The notes: a model not told the origin generated them from the sequence alone. Numbered from the stretch's first letter, positions 34,543-42,759 are shown. The stretch: 42,759 bases of DNA from an uncultured Deferribacteres bacterium (GCA_913009825.1 CAJVYQ010000042.1:1-42759); one strand, 5' to 3'. Made by a program: numbers and translations.

Positions 34543-34780
34543 AAAATCCTCCTCTTACCGGTTAGAAAAGTAGTGTGAAATAGACATAATATTTTAAAGA
34601 TTTATGATGGTAAAGTCAAGGTATAAATGGGTGGGTTTTCAGTACAGAGTTTTTTTAGTTTGTGAAAAGCAAGGATAAGGGAGATGGGGTTAAAATTGGA
34701 AATTTTAAAATCGAAATCAATGGAATACAATATGTGGTAATCCTGATTTCTAATTTTTTAAATTTGTGAATGATGCAGGT

Positions 34781-34840
34781 TTGACCGGATGAACAGGATT
34801 CACCGGATTTTTATCCTGTAAATCCTGTTCATCCGGTCAA
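34781..34840. repeat. perfect 20-bp inverted repeat
   Basis: TTGACCGGATGAACAGGATT at 34781-34800 is perfectly complementary to 34821-34840, separated by 20 bp that contain another ATCCTG/CGGATT word. It is a widespread type of intergenic palindrome in environmental genomes and could also end transcription between the serine-hydrolase remnant and the C69 gene. The surrounding gap 34543-34909 holds only this and a partial GCAGGAGTTG repeat at 34854. Confidence 0.75.
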
Positions 34841-34909
34841 AAAAGTCAATTTAGCAGGAGTTGAACTCCCACCTTAGCTTTTTAAATCAGTTCATTTTCA
34901 CATTGAGAA

Positions 34910-35452
34910 TCAGCTTAACCGGCGTGCCGAAATTCTCCTTGGAAATTTTGTGCGGATACCGGTATTGGCGTCATGAACAATGACCATATCAATATCCGGG
35001 ATAATAAGAATGTAGTGTCCACCTGCGCCACGGGTGGAATAGGTTCCTTCCGCTAGTTTCACAGTAGGCAAATGGGAAAATTTGTTGAAGTTCCGGGCAA
35101 CTCACCGGAGATAGCCATAACCGGAATTCAGCGTTGTATCGGAATGGTCGCGTGTGCTTTCTTTTACCCAATCGGCGGGAATCACCTGGTTTATCTCGCT
35201 ACTTTCCTTTTGTCCGCTTTGCAAGCGCAGCACCTGGCCGAGATAGATGTTATCAAGATTTTGAACCGCATCGTCCGGCGCCGCGGTCAATCCGATCTCG
35301 ATGTCCGCAGCAAAATCACTACCGGCGGGTTTTTGTTCCCGGCCGTCGCATCGTGCCGACAGGAACAGGGAGGAACCGCCCACAAGGGCAGCCGAGCCAA
35401 TGATGCTCGATTGCAGAAATCTGCGTCGATTAATATTATCTGATTTTTTCAT
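34910..35452 (-). pseudogene. Tat-signal serine hydrolase (beta-lactamase class C type), decayed
   Basis: The frame opens with a twin-arginine signal (NINRRRFLQSSIIGSAAL). After about 60 residues it jumps to the C-terminal part of a penicillin-binding-protein-like serine hydrolase: QVIPADWVKESTRDHSD, then GYGYL followed by CGG-TGA where family members have Trp-Trp. The same frame then continues to STRGAGGHYILIIPDIDMVI before a final TGA at 34910. The central catalytic part with S-x-x-K and Y-x-N is absent, so both an internal deletion and a nonsense change have occurred. It starts 12 bp after the second methyltransferase gene and may be transcribed with it. Confidence 0.78.
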
Positions 35453-35464
35453 TATGGTTTATCC

Positions 35465-36169
35465 TTAAATATGTTCGTCGTTCAGTTCAACTTTTACCTT
35501 TTTTCTCAATGTTACCCGGAATAGTTTACGGGGCAGCCCGCCTTCTTCAAATTTATCGATTGCAATAATCTCGTAACCTGTGGCCAGATGTTTTACTTTT
35601 TCTTCATCAAAAAAATGCACGATATAGCCGCCCGTTTCGTACATGTCCTCGCCACGATGGATGCCCTGTCGAAAGTGGGCATCTCCCTTGTGGCGAACAG
35701 TATAAACATTCAGCCCGCCCGGTTTCAGCATGCGGCGGACCTGGGCCGACAGGAATTCCAGTTCCGATGTGCTCAGCGCCATGCAATAAAGCATGTGCGA
35801 ATAGCAGTCGTCAAAGGTTTCGTCGGCAAAAGGAAACCTCTGCCGCACATCGTGGCACATCGGGTGAACTAGATCGACGAGGCCGTTCTTTTCAGCTTTT
35901 TCGGAAATGGCAAGGACGCCGCTCTCGCAATAGTCCAGCACCGTTACCTCGAATCCGCTGCGGGCGAAGAACAGCGTGTCGCGTCCCTGGCCGCCGCCCA
36001 GTTCCAGGATATTTTTCACCCCGTTATTTTTAAAAATTTCGACCGCCTTTCGCGCCGGTTCGCTGGCATCAGCGCCAAACATATCTTTTCTTTTCGTGAA
36101 AGATTTTTCCCACTGTTTAGTCTGTTCGTTTAATACCTTAATATCAAGTAAAGATTTTTCTTTTTCCAT
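35465..36169 (-). CDS. SAM-dependent methyltransferase, cassette copy 2
   Basis: 234-residue class I methyltransferase. Motif I is NILELGGGQGRDTLFFA (about residues 53-69), followed by acidic motif FEVTVLDYCESG, then PFADETFDDCYSHMLYCMAL, LKPGGLNVYTVRHKGDAHFR and the C-terminal block EEGGLPRKLFRVTL. Cys residues in LDYC, PMCHD and DCYSHMLYC are shared with copy 1. TehB- or thiopurine-type enzymes that methylate metalloid or thiol compounds have this general fold and size, so a metal, metalloid or thiol acceptor is a reasonable guess given MerTP upstream. The ATG follows directly on the SHOCT stop codon. Confidence 0.88.
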   Translation of the reverse strand: MEKEKSLLDIKVLNEQTKQWEKSFTKRKDMFGADASEPARKAVEIFKNNGVKNILELGGGQGRDTLFFARSGFEVTVLDYCESGVLAISEKAEKNGLVDLVHPMCHDVRQRFPFADETFDDCYSHMLYCMALSTSELEFLSAQVRRMLKPGGLNVYTVRHKGDAHFRQGIHRGEDMYETGGYIVHFFDEEKVKHLATGYEIIAIDKFEEGGLPRKLFRVTLRKKVKVELNDEHI

Positions 36170-36415
36170 TTATTGCAAATCCCCTTTCATCTGTTCAAAT
36201 TCTTCCTTGTTAATTTCTCCCTTGGCATACCTTTGTTTTAAAATATCCAAAGCTTTGTCGGAAGAATCCTCTCTGTGATAATGGCTATTATTGTAATGCC
36301 AAGGCGGTGCTATTCTATCTCTTCCAAAAATTAAGTAAATAACTACAAGCATAACAATTAACATTATTATCGGGAATATCCACATTCCGCCTCCCCCAAA
36401 ATATTCAGGACCCAT
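36170..36415 (-). CDS. SHOCT-domain membrane protein, cassette copy 2 (shortened)
   Basis: 81-residue protein with one transmembrane helix (WIFPIIMLIVMLVVIYLIFG) and a C-terminal SHOCT motif (ALDILKQRYAKGEINKEEFE), a short helical module found at protein ends. Start 36415 is chosen because AGGAG lies eight bases upstream; an ATG at 36433 overlaps that site. Compared with copy 1 it lacks about 45 N-terminal residues, including the first helix and both cysteines. Confidence 0.8.
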   Translation of the reverse strand: MGPEYFGGGGMWIFPIIMLIVMLVVIYLIFGRDRIAPPWHYNNSHYHREDSSDKALDILKQRYAKGEINKEEFEQMKGDLQ

Positions 36416-36511
36416 ACTGTTAACTCCTTTCATTATTTATTTTTTCGCAACGAATAACCCAATTTTTCAATATCGTTTTATTCACAATAAAAAATATTTT
36501 CTAAATTTACT

Positions 36512-36781
36512 TTATTTTTCAGCCTCTGTATCCGATTTGAGCTGTCCTTCAAATATAGACATCATTGTGGTAATCATCTCTCTTGCCAGATTCTGTTTTG
36601 CATCTGAATCTAATTCGGAAAAAATCATATTTAAACATTTAGGCATCATGGCGCCGACGAAAGCCATTCGATCATCTGCGGACATTTGACCTAACATTTT
36701 TTCCATCATTGTGTCCATCATTTGCGGCATATCTTCGGGCTTCATCATTCCCGACATCATTTTTTCCATCATTTTGTTCAT
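36512..36781 (-). CDS. Met-rich small protein, cassette copy 2
   Basis: 89-residue protein with 21 methionines, most in the first 52 residues, where pairs recur every three to four positions (MMEKMMSGMMKPEDMPQMM). One conserved Cys lies in MMPKCLNMIF at residue 49. No signal peptide or transmembrane helix is seen; the rest is charged and helical. Met pairs of this kind are known soft-metal ligands in other proteins, so binding of Cu(I), Ag(I) or Hg(II) is a fair hypothesis. The ATG overlaps the stop of methyltransferase copy 1 (ATGA). I recognise no named family. Confidence 0.8.
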   Translation of the reverse strand: MNKMMEKMMSGMMKPEDMPQMMDTMMEKMLGQMSADDRMAFVGAMMPKCLNMIFSELDSDAKQNLAREMITTMMSIFEGQLKSDTEAEK

Positions 36782-37464
36782 TGCGTATTTCTTTTCTTTT
36801 TTAAAGTTACTATAAATAATTTTCGGGACAACCCGCCTTCTTCAAATTTATCGATTGCAACAATCTCATCACCCTGAGCCAAGTGCCGCACTTTATCTTC
36901 ATCAAAAAAATGCACGATATAACCGCCCATTTCGTACATGTCCTCGCCACGATGGATGCCCTGTTGGAAATGGGCGTCTCCTTTATGGCGAACAGTGTAA
37001 ACATTCAGTCCGCCCGGTTTCAGCACGCGGCGGACCTGCGCCGACAGGAATTCCAGTTCCGATGTTGTCAGCGCCATGCAGTAAAGCATGTGCGAATAGC
37101 AGGCGTCGAATGTTTCGTCGGCAAAAGGAAACCTCTCCCGCACATCGTGACACATTGGGTGAATCAAATCGGCCAGTCTGCTTTTTTCGGCCTTTTCAGA
37201 AATAGCAAGTACGCCGCTGTGGCAATAGTCCAGCACTGTTACCTCGAATCCGCTGCGGGCGAAGAACAATGTGTCGCAGCCCTGGCCGCCGCCCAGTTCC
37301 AAAATATTCTTTAGGCCGTTCTTTTTAAAAAGTTCAGCAGCTTTCTGTGCGGCTTGGCTGGCATCGACGCCGAACATGTCGGAGCGCCTTGAGAAAGATT
37401 TTTCCCAATGATGCGTCTGTTCGTTCAATACTTTATGATCAAGTGAAGATATTCTTGTTTTCAT
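36778..37464 (-). CDS. SAM-dependent methyltransferase, cassette copy 1
   Basis: 228-residue class I methyltransferase, the closer-to-promoter copy. Motif I is NILELGGGQGCDTLFFA, with an extra Cys where copy 2 has Arg. It is followed by FEVTVLDYCHSG, PMCHDVRERFPFADETFD, ACYSHMLYCMALTTSE and KPGGLNVYTVRHKGDAHF. It is collinear and mostly identical with copy 2, so the duplication is recent. The ATG abuts the SHOCT stop (TAAATG) and its own stop overlaps the next Met-rich start. The substrate is unknown. Confidence 0.88.
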   Translation of the reverse strand: MKTRISSLDHKVLNEQTHHWEKSFSRRSDMFGVDASQAAQKAAELFKKNGLKNILELGGGQGCDTLFFARSGFEVTVLDYCHSGVLAISEKAEKSRLADLIHPMCHDVRERFPFADETFDACYSHMLYCMALTTSELEFLSAQVRRVLKPGGLNVYTVRHKGDAHFQQGIHRGEDMYEMGGYIVHFFDEDKVRHLAQGDEIVAIDKFEEGGLSRKLFIVTLKKKRNTQ

Positions 37465-37836
37465 TTATTGTAAATCCCTTTTCATCTGTTCAAATTCTTC
37501 TCTGGAAACTTCTCCTCTTGCATAGCGTTTTCTGAGAATATCCAGGGCGTTATCTGATTCACGGCCGGAGTACGGAGGTTGACCGGAGTCCTGCCACGGC
37601 GGGCGAAGATTTCCCCCGCCAAAAATCAGATAAATAAAAGCCAACATGGCTACAAGCATAATTACGGGAAAAATAAACATACCGCCTCCAAAAAAGTAAT
37701 CCGGACACGCGAAACTGCCGCAAAAAGAAAATGGGCTGTTCGCGTAATGCCCCGGCATAAATACAGGGCCCACGACGCTGATACCAATTAAAATCACCAA
37801 TACCATTAATACGATCCACAAAATTGATTTCTTCAT
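37465..37836 (-). CDS. SHOCT-domain membrane protein, cassette copy 1
   Basis: 123-residue protein with two transmembrane helices (about residues 5-25, ILWIVLMVLVILIGISVVGP, and 52-72, FIFPVIMLVAMLAFIYLIF). A short outside loop carries Cys residues in FSFCGSFACPDYF, and a C-terminal SHOCT module has ALDILRKRYARGEVSREEFE. The loop cysteines facing the periplasm could bind metal. It lies 7 bp after the Met-rich gene. No function is known for SHOCT proteins of this layout. Confidence 0.85.
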   Translation of the reverse strand: MKKSILWIVLMVLVILIGISVVGPVFMPGHYANSPFSFCGSFACPDYFFGGGMFIFPVIMLVAMLAFIYLIFGGGNLRPPWQDSGQPPYSGRESDNALDILRKRYARGEVSREEFEQMKRDLQ

Positions 37837-37843
37837 ACTCGCC

Positions 37844-38098
37844 TCACTTTTCTCCCGCCAGATTTGAGAAAATGCCCATCATTTTTTCCATCATTTCCCG
37901 GGCAAGCTTTTCTTTGGATTCGGAATCCAATTCGGAAAAAATCATATTTAAACATTTCGGCATCATGGCGCCGACGAAAGCCATCCGGTCTTCTGCCGAC
38001 ATTTGACCGAACATTTTTTCCATCATCGTGTCCATCATTTGCGGCATATCTTCGGGCTTCATCATTCCCGACATCATTTTTTCCATTAATTTGTTCAT
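37844..38098 (-). CDS. Met-rich small protein, cassette copy 1
   Basis: 84-residue Met-rich protein nearly identical to copy 2 over the first 59 residues (differences at positions 4, 30 and 36), then diverging (KEKLAREMMEKMMGIFSNLA). It has the same single Cys in MMPKCLNM. It starts 18 bp after the MerTP stop. No signal peptide is seen, so it is expected in the cytoplasm. It could be a cytoplasmic metal buffer receiving ions from MerTP, which is inference from position and composition. Confidence 0.8.
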   Translation of the reverse strand: MNKLMEKMMSGMMKPEDMPQMMDTMMEKMFGQMSAEDRMAFVGAMMPKCLNMIFSELDSESKEKLAREMMEKMMGIFSNLAGEK

Positions 38099-38116: not shown

Positions 38117-38758
38117 TTATTGTAAATCTTTGTTAAATTCTTCTTTAATTTTCTTATGGCTGGAGACATTATAGCCGGTTTCATCAACTGCTTTTATTAT
38201 GTCTTCAATTTTAGTCTTTGTTGTATCAAAAAGGACGATGCTCTCTTTATGCTTGTATGATGTTTCAACATTCAACACGCCTTCAAGCGCTGCAATCTTG
38301 TGATTTATTTGTCCTTCGCAAGCAGAGCAAGTCATATCATTAATTGTGAATTGCATTTTGACCAGATTTTTCTCGTTGACGATTATTATTTCTTTGGTAT
38401 CCTGTTTAGGAACAAAAATATGAGAGTAATAAGGAAAGGCAAGTAATGTCACCGTGATTATTGTTATTAAAAGCAGAAAAGCTTTTGAGTTAATAAACCT
38501 GCCTTTTTCTGCTTCACAATCACAATCTATCTCGGAACTTTTTGGTTTTAGCGTTTTATACCAGGCAACAGCAAGAAATATAATTGTCAGAGCTATCAAG
38601 TATGGGCGGAGAGGTTCCAACCATGAAAAAGCAGAGGCGATTCCACCTACCCCGGCAAATATTGCCAAAATTGGTGTAATGCAACATAATGAAGTTGATA
38701 TAGCAGCTAAGATGCTTGCACCAAGCCATTTTTTATTTGTTTTTTTTATGTTATTCAT
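38117..38758 (-). CDS. MerT-MerP fusion metal importer (MerTP-like)
   Basis: 213-residue protein. The N-terminal part has a MerT-type first helix with the vicinal pair STSLCCITPI (residues 25-26), two more helices and a cytoplasmic CDC segment (EIDCDCEAEKG). The C-terminal part (from about residue 135) is a heavy-metal-associated domain with NDMTCSACEGQINHKI (Cys 144 and 147) and AVDETGYNV. This is the layout of mercuric transport fusions in several phyla. Its start overlaps the stop of the preceding gene (ATGA). No MerA reductase or MerR regulator lies in the window, so mercury is the default but not the proven substrate. Confidence 0.85.
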   Translation of the reverse strand: MNNIKKTNKKWLGASILAAISTSLCCITPILAIFAGVGGIASAFSWLEPLRPYLIALTIIFLAVAWYKTLKPKSSEIDCDCEAEKGRFINSKAFLLLITIITVTLLAFPYYSHIFVPKQDTKEIIIVNEKNLVKMQFTINDMTCSACEGQINHKIAALEGVLNVETSYKHKESIVLFDTTKTKIEDIIKAVDETGYNVSSHKKIKEEFNKDLQ

Positions 38759-39159
38759 TTGTCTATTACTCCTAATGATTTGATGTATTTGTCATAGTTT
38801 TCTCTAAATTGGAAGTATAAAACACCTTTTTCTTTGTTTGGGTCTGGTGCGATGTAAGCAGTTGCTTTATCTACTTTTTCTCCGGAAAATGGATCGGTAG
38901 AAAAACGAGTTGTACTGTCTGTTCTTAATTGCTCAGAAGTAAATTCGCAACAACCATTATAGGTTTTTCCATTAACAATAACCGGCTCAGTAGGAGTGTC
39001 AATTATTTCGTTGTAATACATAGAAACATATTCCCTTTTGATTGAGGGATCTTGTTTTGCTTCTGTTTTTGATTTTTCTATTTTACCAGTGGTTAATAGT
39101 GTAACTACTATAGTAATAGTGAATATGCTTAACACTATTATAGTAATTAATCTTTTCAT
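38755..39159 (-). CDS. secreted CC-containing putative metal-site protein
   Basis: 134-residue protein with an N-terminal signal or anchor (ITIIVLSIFTITIVVTLLTT, residues 4-23). The outer part contains VIVNGKTYNGCCEFTSEQLR and TDPFSGEKVDKATAYIA, resembling small YHS/TRASH-like metal-site proteins that accompany mercury and copper genes, but I cannot assign a family firmly. The vicinal Cys pair is the likely ligand. AAAGGGA lies five bases before the ATG. It is the first gene of the block that continues through MerTP, so it may hand periplasmic ions to MerTP. Confidence 0.7.
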   Translation of the reverse strand: MKRLITIIVLSIFTITIVVTLLTTGKIEKSKTEAKQDPSIKREYVSMYYNEIIDTPTEPVIVNGKTYNGCCEFTSEQLRTDSTTRFSTDPFSGEKVDKATAYIAPDPNKEKGVLYFQFRENYDKYIKSLGVIDK

Positions 39160-39458: not shown

Positions 39459-39857
39459 TTACCATCTTCTCCATGGTGGACCGCAAAATCCAGGCTCATT
39501 ACCCCATGATCCTCTAAAATTTGGTCCGTCCCCAAACATCTGACTCATTATTTCCCAAGGATAAAAACCTGACATTTCACGAAAAAATTGCCAGGGTGTA
39601 AATTGATAAGCACTATACTTATTTTGAGCGGTATTTACAGTTCCTCCAAAATGACTAAATCCAAAAGACGGTTGGCTGCCCTTTTGAGAAAACTGGGTAA
39701 ACATATCTGCCAGGAAGTCAATTTTTTCACTGTCAGACATTGAATCTTGATTAAATCGCTCACCCATTTTTTCAGAGAAAAATAAACTCATTCTGGAAAA
39801 GAGTTCCAATTTCTCTTGATCGTTTAATGAATTGAACATTGAATTAAAGCCAGACAT
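39459..39857 (-). CDS. 132-residue protein with Trp/Gly-rich tail, function unknown
   Basis: Start 39857 is chosen for the strong site AAAGGAGAT eight bases upstream. The N-terminal half is helical and acidic (FNSLNDQEKLELFSRMSLFF; SDSEKIDFLADMFTQFSQ) and faintly recalls the Met-rich cassette proteins (SADDRMAFVGAMM). The C-terminal half is aromatic and Gly-rich (YQFTPWQFFREMSGFYPWEI; FRGSWGNEPGFCGPPWRRW) with one Cys. No signal peptide or transmembrane helix. It probably belongs with the ArsR gene and its partner. Confidence 0.65.
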   Translation of the reverse strand: MSGFNSMFNSLNDQEKLELFSRMSLFFSEKMGERFNQDSMSDSEKIDFLADMFTQFSQKGSQPSFGFSHFGGTVNTAQNKYSAYQFTPWQFFREMSGFYPWEIMSQMFGDGPNFRGSWGNEPGFCGPPWRRW

Positions 39858-39956
39858 TTTAAATCTCCTTTCTTTAATTTGTTGTTTTTTTGCCATCAGG
39901 GAAAAGGTTGGCCGGAACATTTTTCCCTTAATCGAATATATTTCCTTTTTTCGATT

Positions 39957-40290: not shown

Positions 40291-40677
40291 TTAGGACTCC
40301 TTCTGTTGATTCATCATTTCAAACATTTTTCCCATCATTGCCGAAAAAGGAAATTGGGGGCTGCTTGCCTGGGTGGAAAAGATGTTTCCCTTTTCGCTTA
40401 ATTCGACCACCAACTGATTGGTTAAATTGATCAGCGCAATGATGGCGGGCTCGGTAAGCTGGTAGAAAACGAAAGACCCTTCGCGCTCCGTGGTCACGAT
40501 ATGATTGTGTTTTAATTCCTTCAAATGATGCGAAACCAACGGCTGCGACAGCCCGGTCTCCTCAACAATTTTTGAAACCGATTTTTTACCATCAGCAAGA
40601 TTGAAAATAATTCCTAAACGATTTTCATCGGCCAGTGATTTAAAAAGCCCGGCAATCTGTTTGTAGTAAATTTTCAT
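40291..40677 (-). CDS. ArsR/SmtB-family regulator without cysteines
   Basis: 128-residue winged-helix repressor. YKQIAGLFKSLADENRLGI opens the ArsR fold, the recognition helix is SQPLVSHHLKELKHNHIV, and the wing is EREGSFVFYQLT. The family's thiolate metal sites (for example the ELCVCD motif of ArsR) are absent; there is no Cys anywhere. The tail FSAMMGKMFEMMNQQ is Met-rich. ATG 40677 is chosen; the frame extends to a TTG at 40686. It is the first gene after a promoter with overlapping palindromes, so it is probably autoregulated. The inducer is unknown. Confidence 0.88.
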   Translation of the reverse strand: MKIYYKQIAGLFKSLADENRLGIIFNLADGKKSVSKIVEETGLSQPLVSHHLKELKHNHIVTTEREGSFVFYQLTEPAIIALINLTNQLVVELSEKGNIFSTQASSPQFPFSAMMGKMFEMMNQQKES

Positions 40678-40693
40678 GATGCGCAACCATTAT

Positions 40694-41730: not shown

Positions 41731-42759
41731 TCGTGGTATATTTTGAATTCTTTTCTTTCGATGTGAGAGATAGGCCTTGTGGTTTTTTATCTGAACCCAC
41801 ATTACTAAAGATATAGCTTCATTAATATCGTAAATTTTCAATGGTAAAATAACCTCCAGCAAAATTCTAAGCTGCGACAGAGTAATAGACGGAGCTTTTT
41901 TTCCCCAACCTGATTTTAAGGTGCCAAAGGAAAAAATGAGATAACATACAAGTTAAAATATGATGATTCCAGCCCGTATATTTCCGAACCTCATATTGAT
42001 CCATACCTAACTCACTTTTTGTCTCTTCAAAACATTGCTCTATTGCCCATCTAAGACCACTTAACCAGACAAAGGTTTTAAGTTTTGTATCTTCAGGAGC
42101 ATTGCTTATGAAATATTTATATGTAGGGTTGCATCCTATTGTTCGTTTGATGATAAGCCAAACCGTTTTTTCAGGCAGGCCATTTCTTGCCAGAACAACA
42201 CGTTTTATTGCAAATTCATACTCAATGGGCCCTTTTGTTCCTTCTGATACTTTGCGCCGGTACCAGAAGTAATTGTTAATATTCATAGCCAGTGTTTCGA
42301 AAGATATGGGTTTCTTTTCTCCTTTTTCAAGGATAACTCTGGTACGCCTCTCGCTTTTATAGTTGTATTCCTTTTCCATTGTTTTGGGTCTTTCCAACCA
42401 ACACAACGTATCTGACGGAATGCTGACAAAATAATGTAGTTCCGAATGTTCTTCTATAGCGTCAATAAACTCCGGGCTGTTTCCATAAAGAGAGTCAGCC
42501 AAAATATATTTATATGGTAATATTTTTCGTTCTTGCAGTTCATGAAACATTTCAATGGCCAACTGGGGTTTTGTCTTAAATTCAACATCTTCGGGAATTT
42601 TACATTTTTCCCTTCTTATCGCGTATTCGTCAGTAAACCATTTCTCAGGAATAAATAACCGTTTATCCAATAAAGCATAGCCCGAAGGAGAAGCATAAGC
42701 AGCAAATACACCAACCTGGCAATTTTCTACCTTGCCCAAATTGCCACAATACTGTTTAG
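41709..42759 (-). mobile_element. IS701-family insertion sequence, running off the window
   Basis: From about 41709, where the ATPase similarity stops, to the window end the sequence is accounted for by an IS701-type transposase and about 150 bp of left-end non-coding DNA. The exact end is unresolved. TTAGTGTAATCG near 41722 resembles the tips of the MITEs at 2 and 22831. The right end and any target duplication are outside the window. Confidence 0.6.
41867..42759 (-). CDS. IS701-family transposase, 5-prime partial
   Basis: The frame stays open to the window edge and reads KQYCGNLGKVENCQVGVFAA, the conserved block that in IS701 transposases includes the first catalytic region. A second block is YKYILADSLYGNSPEF (the family's A-D-x-x-Y-G). 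WLSGLRWAIEQCFEETKSEL (the final catalytic Glu) and GWNHHILTCMLSHFFLWHL follow. The full enzyme is about 400 residues, so roughly the first 100 are missing here. No internal stop is seen, so this copy may be functional. Confidence 0.85.
   Translation of the reverse strand, partial: KQYCGNLGKVENCQVGVFAAYASPSGYALLDKRLFIPEKWFTDEYAIRREKCKIPEDVEFKTKPQLAIEMFHELQERKILPYKYILADSLYGNSPEFIDAIEEHSELHYFVSIPSDTLCWLERPKTMEKEYNYKSERRTRVILEKGEKKPISFETLAMNINNYFWYRRKVSEGTKGPIEYEFAIKRVVLARNGLPEKTVWLIIKRTIGCNPTYKYFISNAPEDTKLKTFVWLSGLRWAIEQCFEETKSELGMDQYEVRKYTGWNHHILTCMLSHFFLWHLKIRLGKKSSVYYSVAA

Follow-up and report, generated by a model that had tools for sequence, protein, structure and literature searches.

Selenoprotein gene neighbourhoods are the closest described relatives of the locus reported here. 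True MduS proteins combine a methyltransferase with an AhpD-like CxxU domain and a tail that bears selenocysteine (Sec), and there are nine matches with in-frame TGAs in 8 of 395 genomes. At true Tso loci, TsoR is found directly upstream of TsoA. These related neighbourhoods are already catalogued, and what is new here is a Sec-free variant that bears a gene for a small Met-rich protein (MET). Gene content and profile matches make the operon that carries this gene a sister, free of Sec, to the neighbourhoods of TsoR/TsoA and MduS.

The operon is located in a 42,759-nucleotide stretch of DNA from an uncultured Deferribacteres bacterium, which we call the window. It ends in two copies of a block that encodes MET, a small SHOCT membrane protein and a methyltransferase (MT). 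From the gene context, we estimate a probability of about 0.5 that these blocks form the end of a soft metal(loid) resistance operon under ArsR control, wherein MT would methylate a soft nucleophile, such as an arsenite-like metalloid, and MET would bind a soft metal.

Architecture and age of the duplicated blocks

The operon runs on the minus strand in the order ArsR, TsoA-like, GFC, a 134-aa protein, MerTP, MET2-SHOCT2-MT2 and MET1-SHOCT1-MT1, down to position 35465. The genes and the remnant that follows them are listed below.

40291..40686, minus strand: ArsR/SmtB regulator, near TsoR (NF045707, 107.7 bits; cut-off 115) and above the cut-off of the generic metalloregulator model NF033788
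39957..40289, minus strand: TsoA-like small protein (NF045695, E 1.6e-15, model positions 63-141, below cut-off; PF09012 FeoC)
39459..39920, minus strand: GFC, a small protein with the C-terminal end NEPGFCGPPWRRW
38755..39159, minus strand: 134-aa protein that has a CC motif and, at its N-terminus, a hydrophobic stretch; ATGA couples its gene to that of MerTP
38117..38758, minus strand: MerTP fusion, soft-metal import (NF033556, 256.3 bits; curated cut-off 180)
37844..38098, minus strand: MET2, 84-aa Met-rich (25% Met) helical protein with conserved MMxxM...MMxxC
37465..37836, minus strand: SHOCT2, small membrane protein with a SHOCT C-terminus (PF09851, E 1.2e-9) and a copy-specific N-terminal extension
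36778..37464, minus strand: MT2, class I SAM methyltransferase with an MduS-type core (NF045649, E 3.4e-84) and the motif C122-x2-H125-M126-x2-C129-M130
36512..36781, minus strand: MET1, second Met-rich copy (81% amino acid identity to MET2)
36170..36433, minus strand: SHOCT1 (PF09851, E 1.1e-9); homologues suggest a start at about 36415 (MGPEYF)
35465..36169, minus strand: MT1, second methyltransferase copy (81% amino acid identity to MT2; NF045649, E 1.2e-87)
35102..35452, minus strand: multicopper oxidase remnant, a Tat leader plus fragments (51% over 147 aa, with gaps, to the oxidase of genome G039)

The six ORFs from 35465 to 38098 form two MET-SHOCT-MT blocks in tandem, as a sequence-only reading of this DNA had proposed. 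Its finer points of layout also hold, because the SHOCT/MT joint is CAATAAATG in both blocks, MT2 and MET1 overlap by ATGA, and the Met-rich copies differ at 3 of their first 59 residues. When the blocks are aligned at the nucleotide level, direct repeats of 300 and 223 nt with 86-88% identity and a spacing of 1295-1317 nt are obtained, which excludes chance as the source of their likeness. SHOCT1 and SHOCT2 are only 57% identical, and the 36-residue N-terminal extension of SHOCT2 corresponds to block 1 DNA that is mostly intergenic. The gaps between MET and SHOCT also differ between the blocks (7 and 78 bp).

The same reading had taken the tandem for a recent amplification, and this is ruled out by synonymous divergence. 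The dS/dN values are 0.68/0.11 for the MT copies and 0.88/0.11 for the MET copies, and the synonymous sites of the SHOCT copies are saturated, and therefore the duplication is old. The proposal of selection for dosage falls with it at a dS of 0.7-0.9. Both cassette copies are under purifying selection, with dN/dS at ~0.12-0.16 for the MT and MET pairs. Identity between MT1 and MT2 is uneven, ranging from 0.68 to 0.95 in 60-nt windows, and so occasional gene conversion between them is possible.

Within its own phylum, MT is found in the window genome and in G039 alone, the latter belonging to a different family within this small phylum. The three proteins form one clade (support 100/96). By identity the G039 protein is nearer MT1, whereas the tree pairs MT1 with MT2 at 99/68. 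In G039, the gene that comes straight after MT encodes an intact 530-aa multicopper oxidase with Pfam Cu-oxidase matches, and the 88% DNA match between this region and the window crosses the MT/oxidase joint. Thus, the ancestral operon was probably terminated by a multicopper oxidase gene that has been lost in the window genome.

At the head of the operon, the ArsR protein has no Cys and carries a Met-rich C-terminal tail. The TsoA-like protein is Sec-free, with a Met-rich N-terminus that includes MEMCKEM and a FeoC-like winged helix. A GFC homologue adjoins MT in a Thermoplasmata archaeon (L063:2452-2721). The assignment of GFC as TsoC is ruled out by the lack of similarity between the two, and the window rhodanese does not match TsoB. 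No family match was found for the 134-aa protein in Pfam/NCBIfam-type profile searches.

Protein families and their genomic company

Profile matches place MT close to the selenoprotein MduS, from which it differs in lacking both Sec and the AhpD-like domain. Residues H125, M126, C129 and M130 are invariant in 81/81 homologues found by pattern and C122 is retained in 78, where the sample was partly selected for this motif because one search pattern covered it. The motif is also present in 22/22 homologues found by HMM, with minor substitutions (Y to F, S to A, L to V), and the exact string is missing in two divergent relatives on Streptomyces plasmids. The predicted structure of MT is of class I (pLDDT 92.8), and the nearest folds include TehB, a methyltransferase that detoxifies metalloids, and METTL6. 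On this model, the motif is expected to lie at the end of strand beta-4, which is the substrate-binding place of class I enzymes.

The MET proteins have 84-89 residues, of which 24-25% are Met, together with one Cys and no His. Among nine homologues, M21, M22, M25, M45, M46 and C49 are invariant. Four helices are predicted (pLDDT 83), and if H2 and H3 pair as an antiparallel hairpin, the conserved residues could lie opposite each other. A search with this four-helix model gave no convincing PDB match, and weak similarities to coronavirus nsp8 (E 0.02) and MgtE_N were set aside as chance or unproven. Both SHOCT proteins exceed the PF09851 gathering score of 27 bits (38.2 and 38.1 bits).

We collected 80 loci with MT relatives at first and later 104, of which 28 follow the SAR11 pattern, wherein MT adjoins a 1-Cys peroxiredoxin gene. 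Within 2.5 kb of MT at the other 76 loci, there are genes for ArsR at 21, SHOCT at 17 and MET at 8, wherein the counts include the window and the SHOCT count includes a shorter Alicyclobacillus type. Seven of the 33 MT genomes have MET, which in every case lies at the MT locus; given that the loci were gathered by means of MT, these counts show that MET accompanies MT and not how frequently MT has MET. Beyond the known MT genomes, there was no strong MET match in sets of 82, 395 and 396 genomes from three phyla, and a plasmid search that recovered three Streptomyces MTs gave no MET.

The sequence-only reading had suggested that the three families should be sought together in other genomes, and they do recur in several lineages in shuffled order, once as an integron cassette. 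The arrangements include SHOCT-MT-MET (L008), MT-MET (L002), ArsR-SHOCT-MET-x-MT-DUF2284 (L005), SHOCT-MT-AhpD-MET-MerT (L012), MT-AhpD-MET (L015) and, in the Thermoplasmata archaeon, MT-GFC-ArsR-MET (L063). Such reordering across distant phyla favours a functional link over a single inherited block.

The cassette is found in a Thiomicrorhabdus metagenome-assembled genome (L008), where SHOCT-MT-MET is bounded on one side by GTTAGGTGC and on the other by an attC with GCACCTAAC as its R'' box. These ends are complementary, the attC folds with a z of -4.2, and a tyrosine integrase gene (candidate IntI) is located just upstream, as is characteristic of integron cassettes. Another locus (L009) has the same cassette start with a truncated MET. 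Integron cassettes usually bear self-sufficient functions, and so the SHOCT-MT-MET trio can probably work as a unit.

A separate observation concerns the ArsR genes upstream of MT at four loci (L005, L010, L017 and L022, the last from Sulfoacidibacillus thermotolerans), all of which have TGA in frame at the same codon. The sequence after this TGA is conserved, including a Cys, and the ArsR of L030 has Cys at the TGA codon position. All four genomes have a tRNA-Sec above its gathering score, and the genome of L030 does not. A hairpin begins 15 nt past the UGA in 4/4 genes, with two pairs altered on both sides; a shuffle control gave 83/500 and is weak with a set of only four sequences. These regulators therefore appear to contain selenocysteine, which would make such a candidate Sec-ArsR a metalloregulator based on selenium. 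ArsR is not mentioned in a 2026 review on the selenoproteins of prokaryotes (PMC13188914). In the window, ArsR has Gln at this position, and the genome has no tRNA-Sec above cut-off.

Proposed metalloid methylation and the alternatives

The case for metalloid methylation is built on sister operons in which MT is exchanged for an arsenite methyltransferase. At two loci (L133 and L195) there are ArsR-TsoA-like-SHOCT-MT operons, with TsoA-like genes that are short and Sec-free. At three others (L194, L203 and L204; genomes G1179 and G1137) ArsR-TsoA-like-SHOCT is followed instead by an ArsM/DUF2284 selenoprotein with an in-frame TGA at the joint, an assignment that for L194 derives from NF041537 (E 2.5e-94), NF041536 (E 1.2e-91) and NF008823 (E 2.8e-52). 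SHOCT1 shares 51% identity with the SHOCT protein of L194, and the DUF2284 of this locus shares 65-71% with those encoded directly after MT at L005 and L010. This common frame and the close DUF2284 relatives suggest that MT and ArsM have been interchanged and have partners in common. AhpD likewise recurs, being encoded directly after MT at L012 and L015 and fused to it, as AhpD(CxxU), in MduS. In addition, MT lies within an ars operon on the Streptomyces plasmid pFRL5. Together, the exchange, the shared partners and the plasmid operon make metalloid methylation by MT the best single reading of the gene context.

These findings bear on the sequence-only reading as a whole, of which the recent amplification and its dosage selection were lost and the co-occurrence, the soft-metal setting and a plausible methyltransferase remain. 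Its MerTP-like neighbour clears the curated cut-off, and ArsR, multicopper oxidase, CopA, CopZ and ars genes are likewise found around MT. Methyl transfer to a metal, metalloid or thiol, which it had offered as one model, is plausible because an arsenite methyltransferase occupies the MT slot in the sister operons.

One possible mechanism begins with ArsR, which would release the operon upon binding a soft ion. MerTP, whose homology is clear, may import this ion to the cytosol or scavenge it at the membrane. The cytosolic, helical MET protein might then hold the ion through its conserved MMxxM and MMxxC. With C122, H125 and C129 expected after strand beta-4, MT would take a methyl group from SAM and pass it to an arsenite-like metalloid or some other soft nucleophile; this reaction is suggested by the presence of ArsM in the same operon slot and by the AhpD and DUF2284 partners common with ArsM selenoproteins. 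Finally, the tight gene coupling suggests that the SHOCT protein anchors MT to the membrane.

Some evidence stands against this reading. No arsenite methyltransferase model passes its cut-off with MT (best 26 bits versus 240), and among the window operon ORFs an arsenite efflux gene, ArsC, AhpD and DUF2284 are all absent. Moreover, many MT neighbours indicate copper (multicopper oxidase, CopA, CopZ) or mercury (MerTP, MerA). The SAR11 MT adjoins a 1-Cys peroxiredoxin in the absence of metal genes, and so part of the family may serve general thiol chemistry. The role may be broad within the soft metals, or the substrate may vary with the host.

The alternative that survives best, while still unlikely, is copper or silver homoeostasis, wherein MET would buffer Cu(I), a periplasmic multicopper oxidase would oxidize it, and MT would modify a thiol ligand or carrier. 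Binding of Cu(I) is common among Met-rich proteins, and copper genes are frequent company: the oxidase follows MT in G039, multicopper oxidase, CusAB and CopA surround SHOCT-MT at L003, CopA lies beside MT at L007, and CopZ adjoins MT in four Alicyclobacillus genomes. However, the oxidase gene is broken in the window, yet both MT copies remain under selection. Useful methylation of copper itself is impossible, and sister operons have ArsM in the MT slot. We found no paper that links SHOCT with multicopper oxidase or that treats MduS beyond a listing.

Mercury is a more doubtful candidate, wherein MerTP would pass Hg(II) to MET and MT would alkylate a thiol or chalcogenide ligand, trapping or releasing Hg(II). 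In its favour are the MerTP of the operon, MerT/MerP-like genes near MT at L012 and L131, and a full canonical mer operon, including merA, elsewhere in the same genome. A MerA above cut-off is found in 5/7 MET genomes versus 1/14 controls, but this may merely mirror habitat. Neither merA nor merR is present among the window operon ORFs, and mer genes are missing at most MT loci. SAM donates CH3+ and HgcA uses a corrinoid, such that Hg(II) is not easily methylated by SAM and the reaction is chemically unlikely. Single-element readings are thus weakened for mercury by the missing merA, as for copper by the broken oxidase.

Least probable is a thiol or sulfide S-methyltransferase that detoxifies H2S, MeSH or low-molecular-weight thiols and to which the metal genes would be incidental. 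This would suit the MT core without metal genes in SAR11, other marine bacteria and methanogens and the recurrent redox partners (Prx, AhpD, thioredoxin-like), but it conflicts with ArsM in the same slot (L194, L203, L204) and with metalloregulators near 21/76 MT loci. The proposed counterpart, MddH, is like MddM a UbiE/UbiG-type SAM methyltransferase (PMC12904073).

Returning to metalloid methylation, a widespread MT family that extends to SAR11 and methanogens is tied to metal(loid) resistance by three independent genomic signals: replacement by ArsM in the operon slot, redox partners in common, and packaging as an integron cassette. We tentatively consider, as a bolder and rather doubtful proposal, that these genes constitute a resistance system, both modular and mobile, which combines a metalloid methyltransferase of a new family with a cytosolic Met/Cys-rich metal binder of another new family and a small membrane anchor, under a regulator that in some bacteria senses the toxicant via selenocysteine. 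If true, there would be a second, unrecognized family of arsenic-type methylation enzymes that extends from SAR11 to archaea. Because the Sec-free version is easier to express, the substrate of the selenoprotein neighbourhoods becomes testable in ordinary hosts.

Comparison with described systems

The operon shares with mer operons a MerTP above cut-off and differs from them in the absence of merA and merR, the canonical set being on contig C3. MT resembles TehB in its class I fold (TM-score ~0.63-0.79; Pfam TehB E 1e-8 for MT1), whereas its scores are 28-35 bits against curated cut-offs of 218-303. With ArsM fused to AhpD or DUF2284 (NF041537, NF041536), MT has in common the operon slot and the DUF2284 partner, whereas MT2 is 31% identical to ArsM over 106 residues only, with no ArsM model above cut-off.

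As at Tso loci, the window ArsR, which is narrowly under the TsoR cut-off, is directly followed by a TsoA-like gene. The latter scores 57.7 bits against a TsoA cut-off of 170, matches over the C-terminal half only, and has neither a TGA nor the LULAXC Sec motif. The window also differs in having no Sec, TsoB or TsoC, and in the additional MerTP, MET, SHOCT and MT genes.

MT1 and MT2 match the first 216-219 positions of the MduS model NF045649, with a shared core over 213-215 residues and the same C/H/M motif. Their scores, 294.0 and 282.7 bits, are below the cut-off of 380, and unlike MduS they end after the methyltransferase domain, without an AhpD-like CxxU domain, Sec tail or in-frame TGA. 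The MduS locus L129 resembles the window in its order of ArsR, SHOCT, a Met-rich protein and MduS.

ArsR genes with an in-frame TGA

Among the loci around relatives of the methyltransferase (MT), four have, upstream of MT, an ArsR gene that contains a TGA in frame, in each case at one common codon:

L005:4365-4670
L010:4754-5056
L017:5687-5968
L022:5576 onward

A fifth ArsR homologue (L030) has Cys at this codon. A tRNA-Sec is found in all four genomes with TGA-bearing ArsR genes, and none was found in the genome that hosts the Cys-type homologue. We consider the four proteins candidate selenocysteine-containing regulators; a 2026 review of prokaryotic selenoproteins (PMC13188914) makes no mention of an ArsR with selenocysteine.

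Surroundings of the operon

DDE transposase, where the contig ends (window 41867-42739)
gene for a multicopper oxidase, broken (window 35102-35452)
inverted repeat of 29 nt, with a 4-nt spacer and 93% complementary (window 34780-34841)

The transposase adjoins the operon and G+C varies strongly along it (31-51%): the region is a mosaic and was probably acquired horizontally. The inverted repeat, located downstream of the operon, is possibly a terminator or REP-like element. In a same-phylum genome, the oxidase gene is intact and follows MT (L091:6172-7764).

Other gene arrangements

L008:5730-7040, SHOCT-MT-MET integron gene cassette
L009:5730-6680, the same, MET (Met-rich protein) truncated
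L197 (G000:C3:101000-112000), second, canonical mer operon of the window's genome (ArsR, MerA, MerTP, MerR)
L129:5039-7126, operon of ArsR, SHOCT, a protein with a Met-rich N-terminus and MduS

Both cassettes come from marine MAGs (n=2). In 28 loci (L041, L045-L080; SAR11 plus one Bacteroidetes MAG), a 1-Cys peroxiredoxin gene is directly followed by an MT homologue, and carriers of this pair are abundant in the ocean. The L129 locus, which encodes the MT-related selenoprotein MduS, shares the plan of the window operon.
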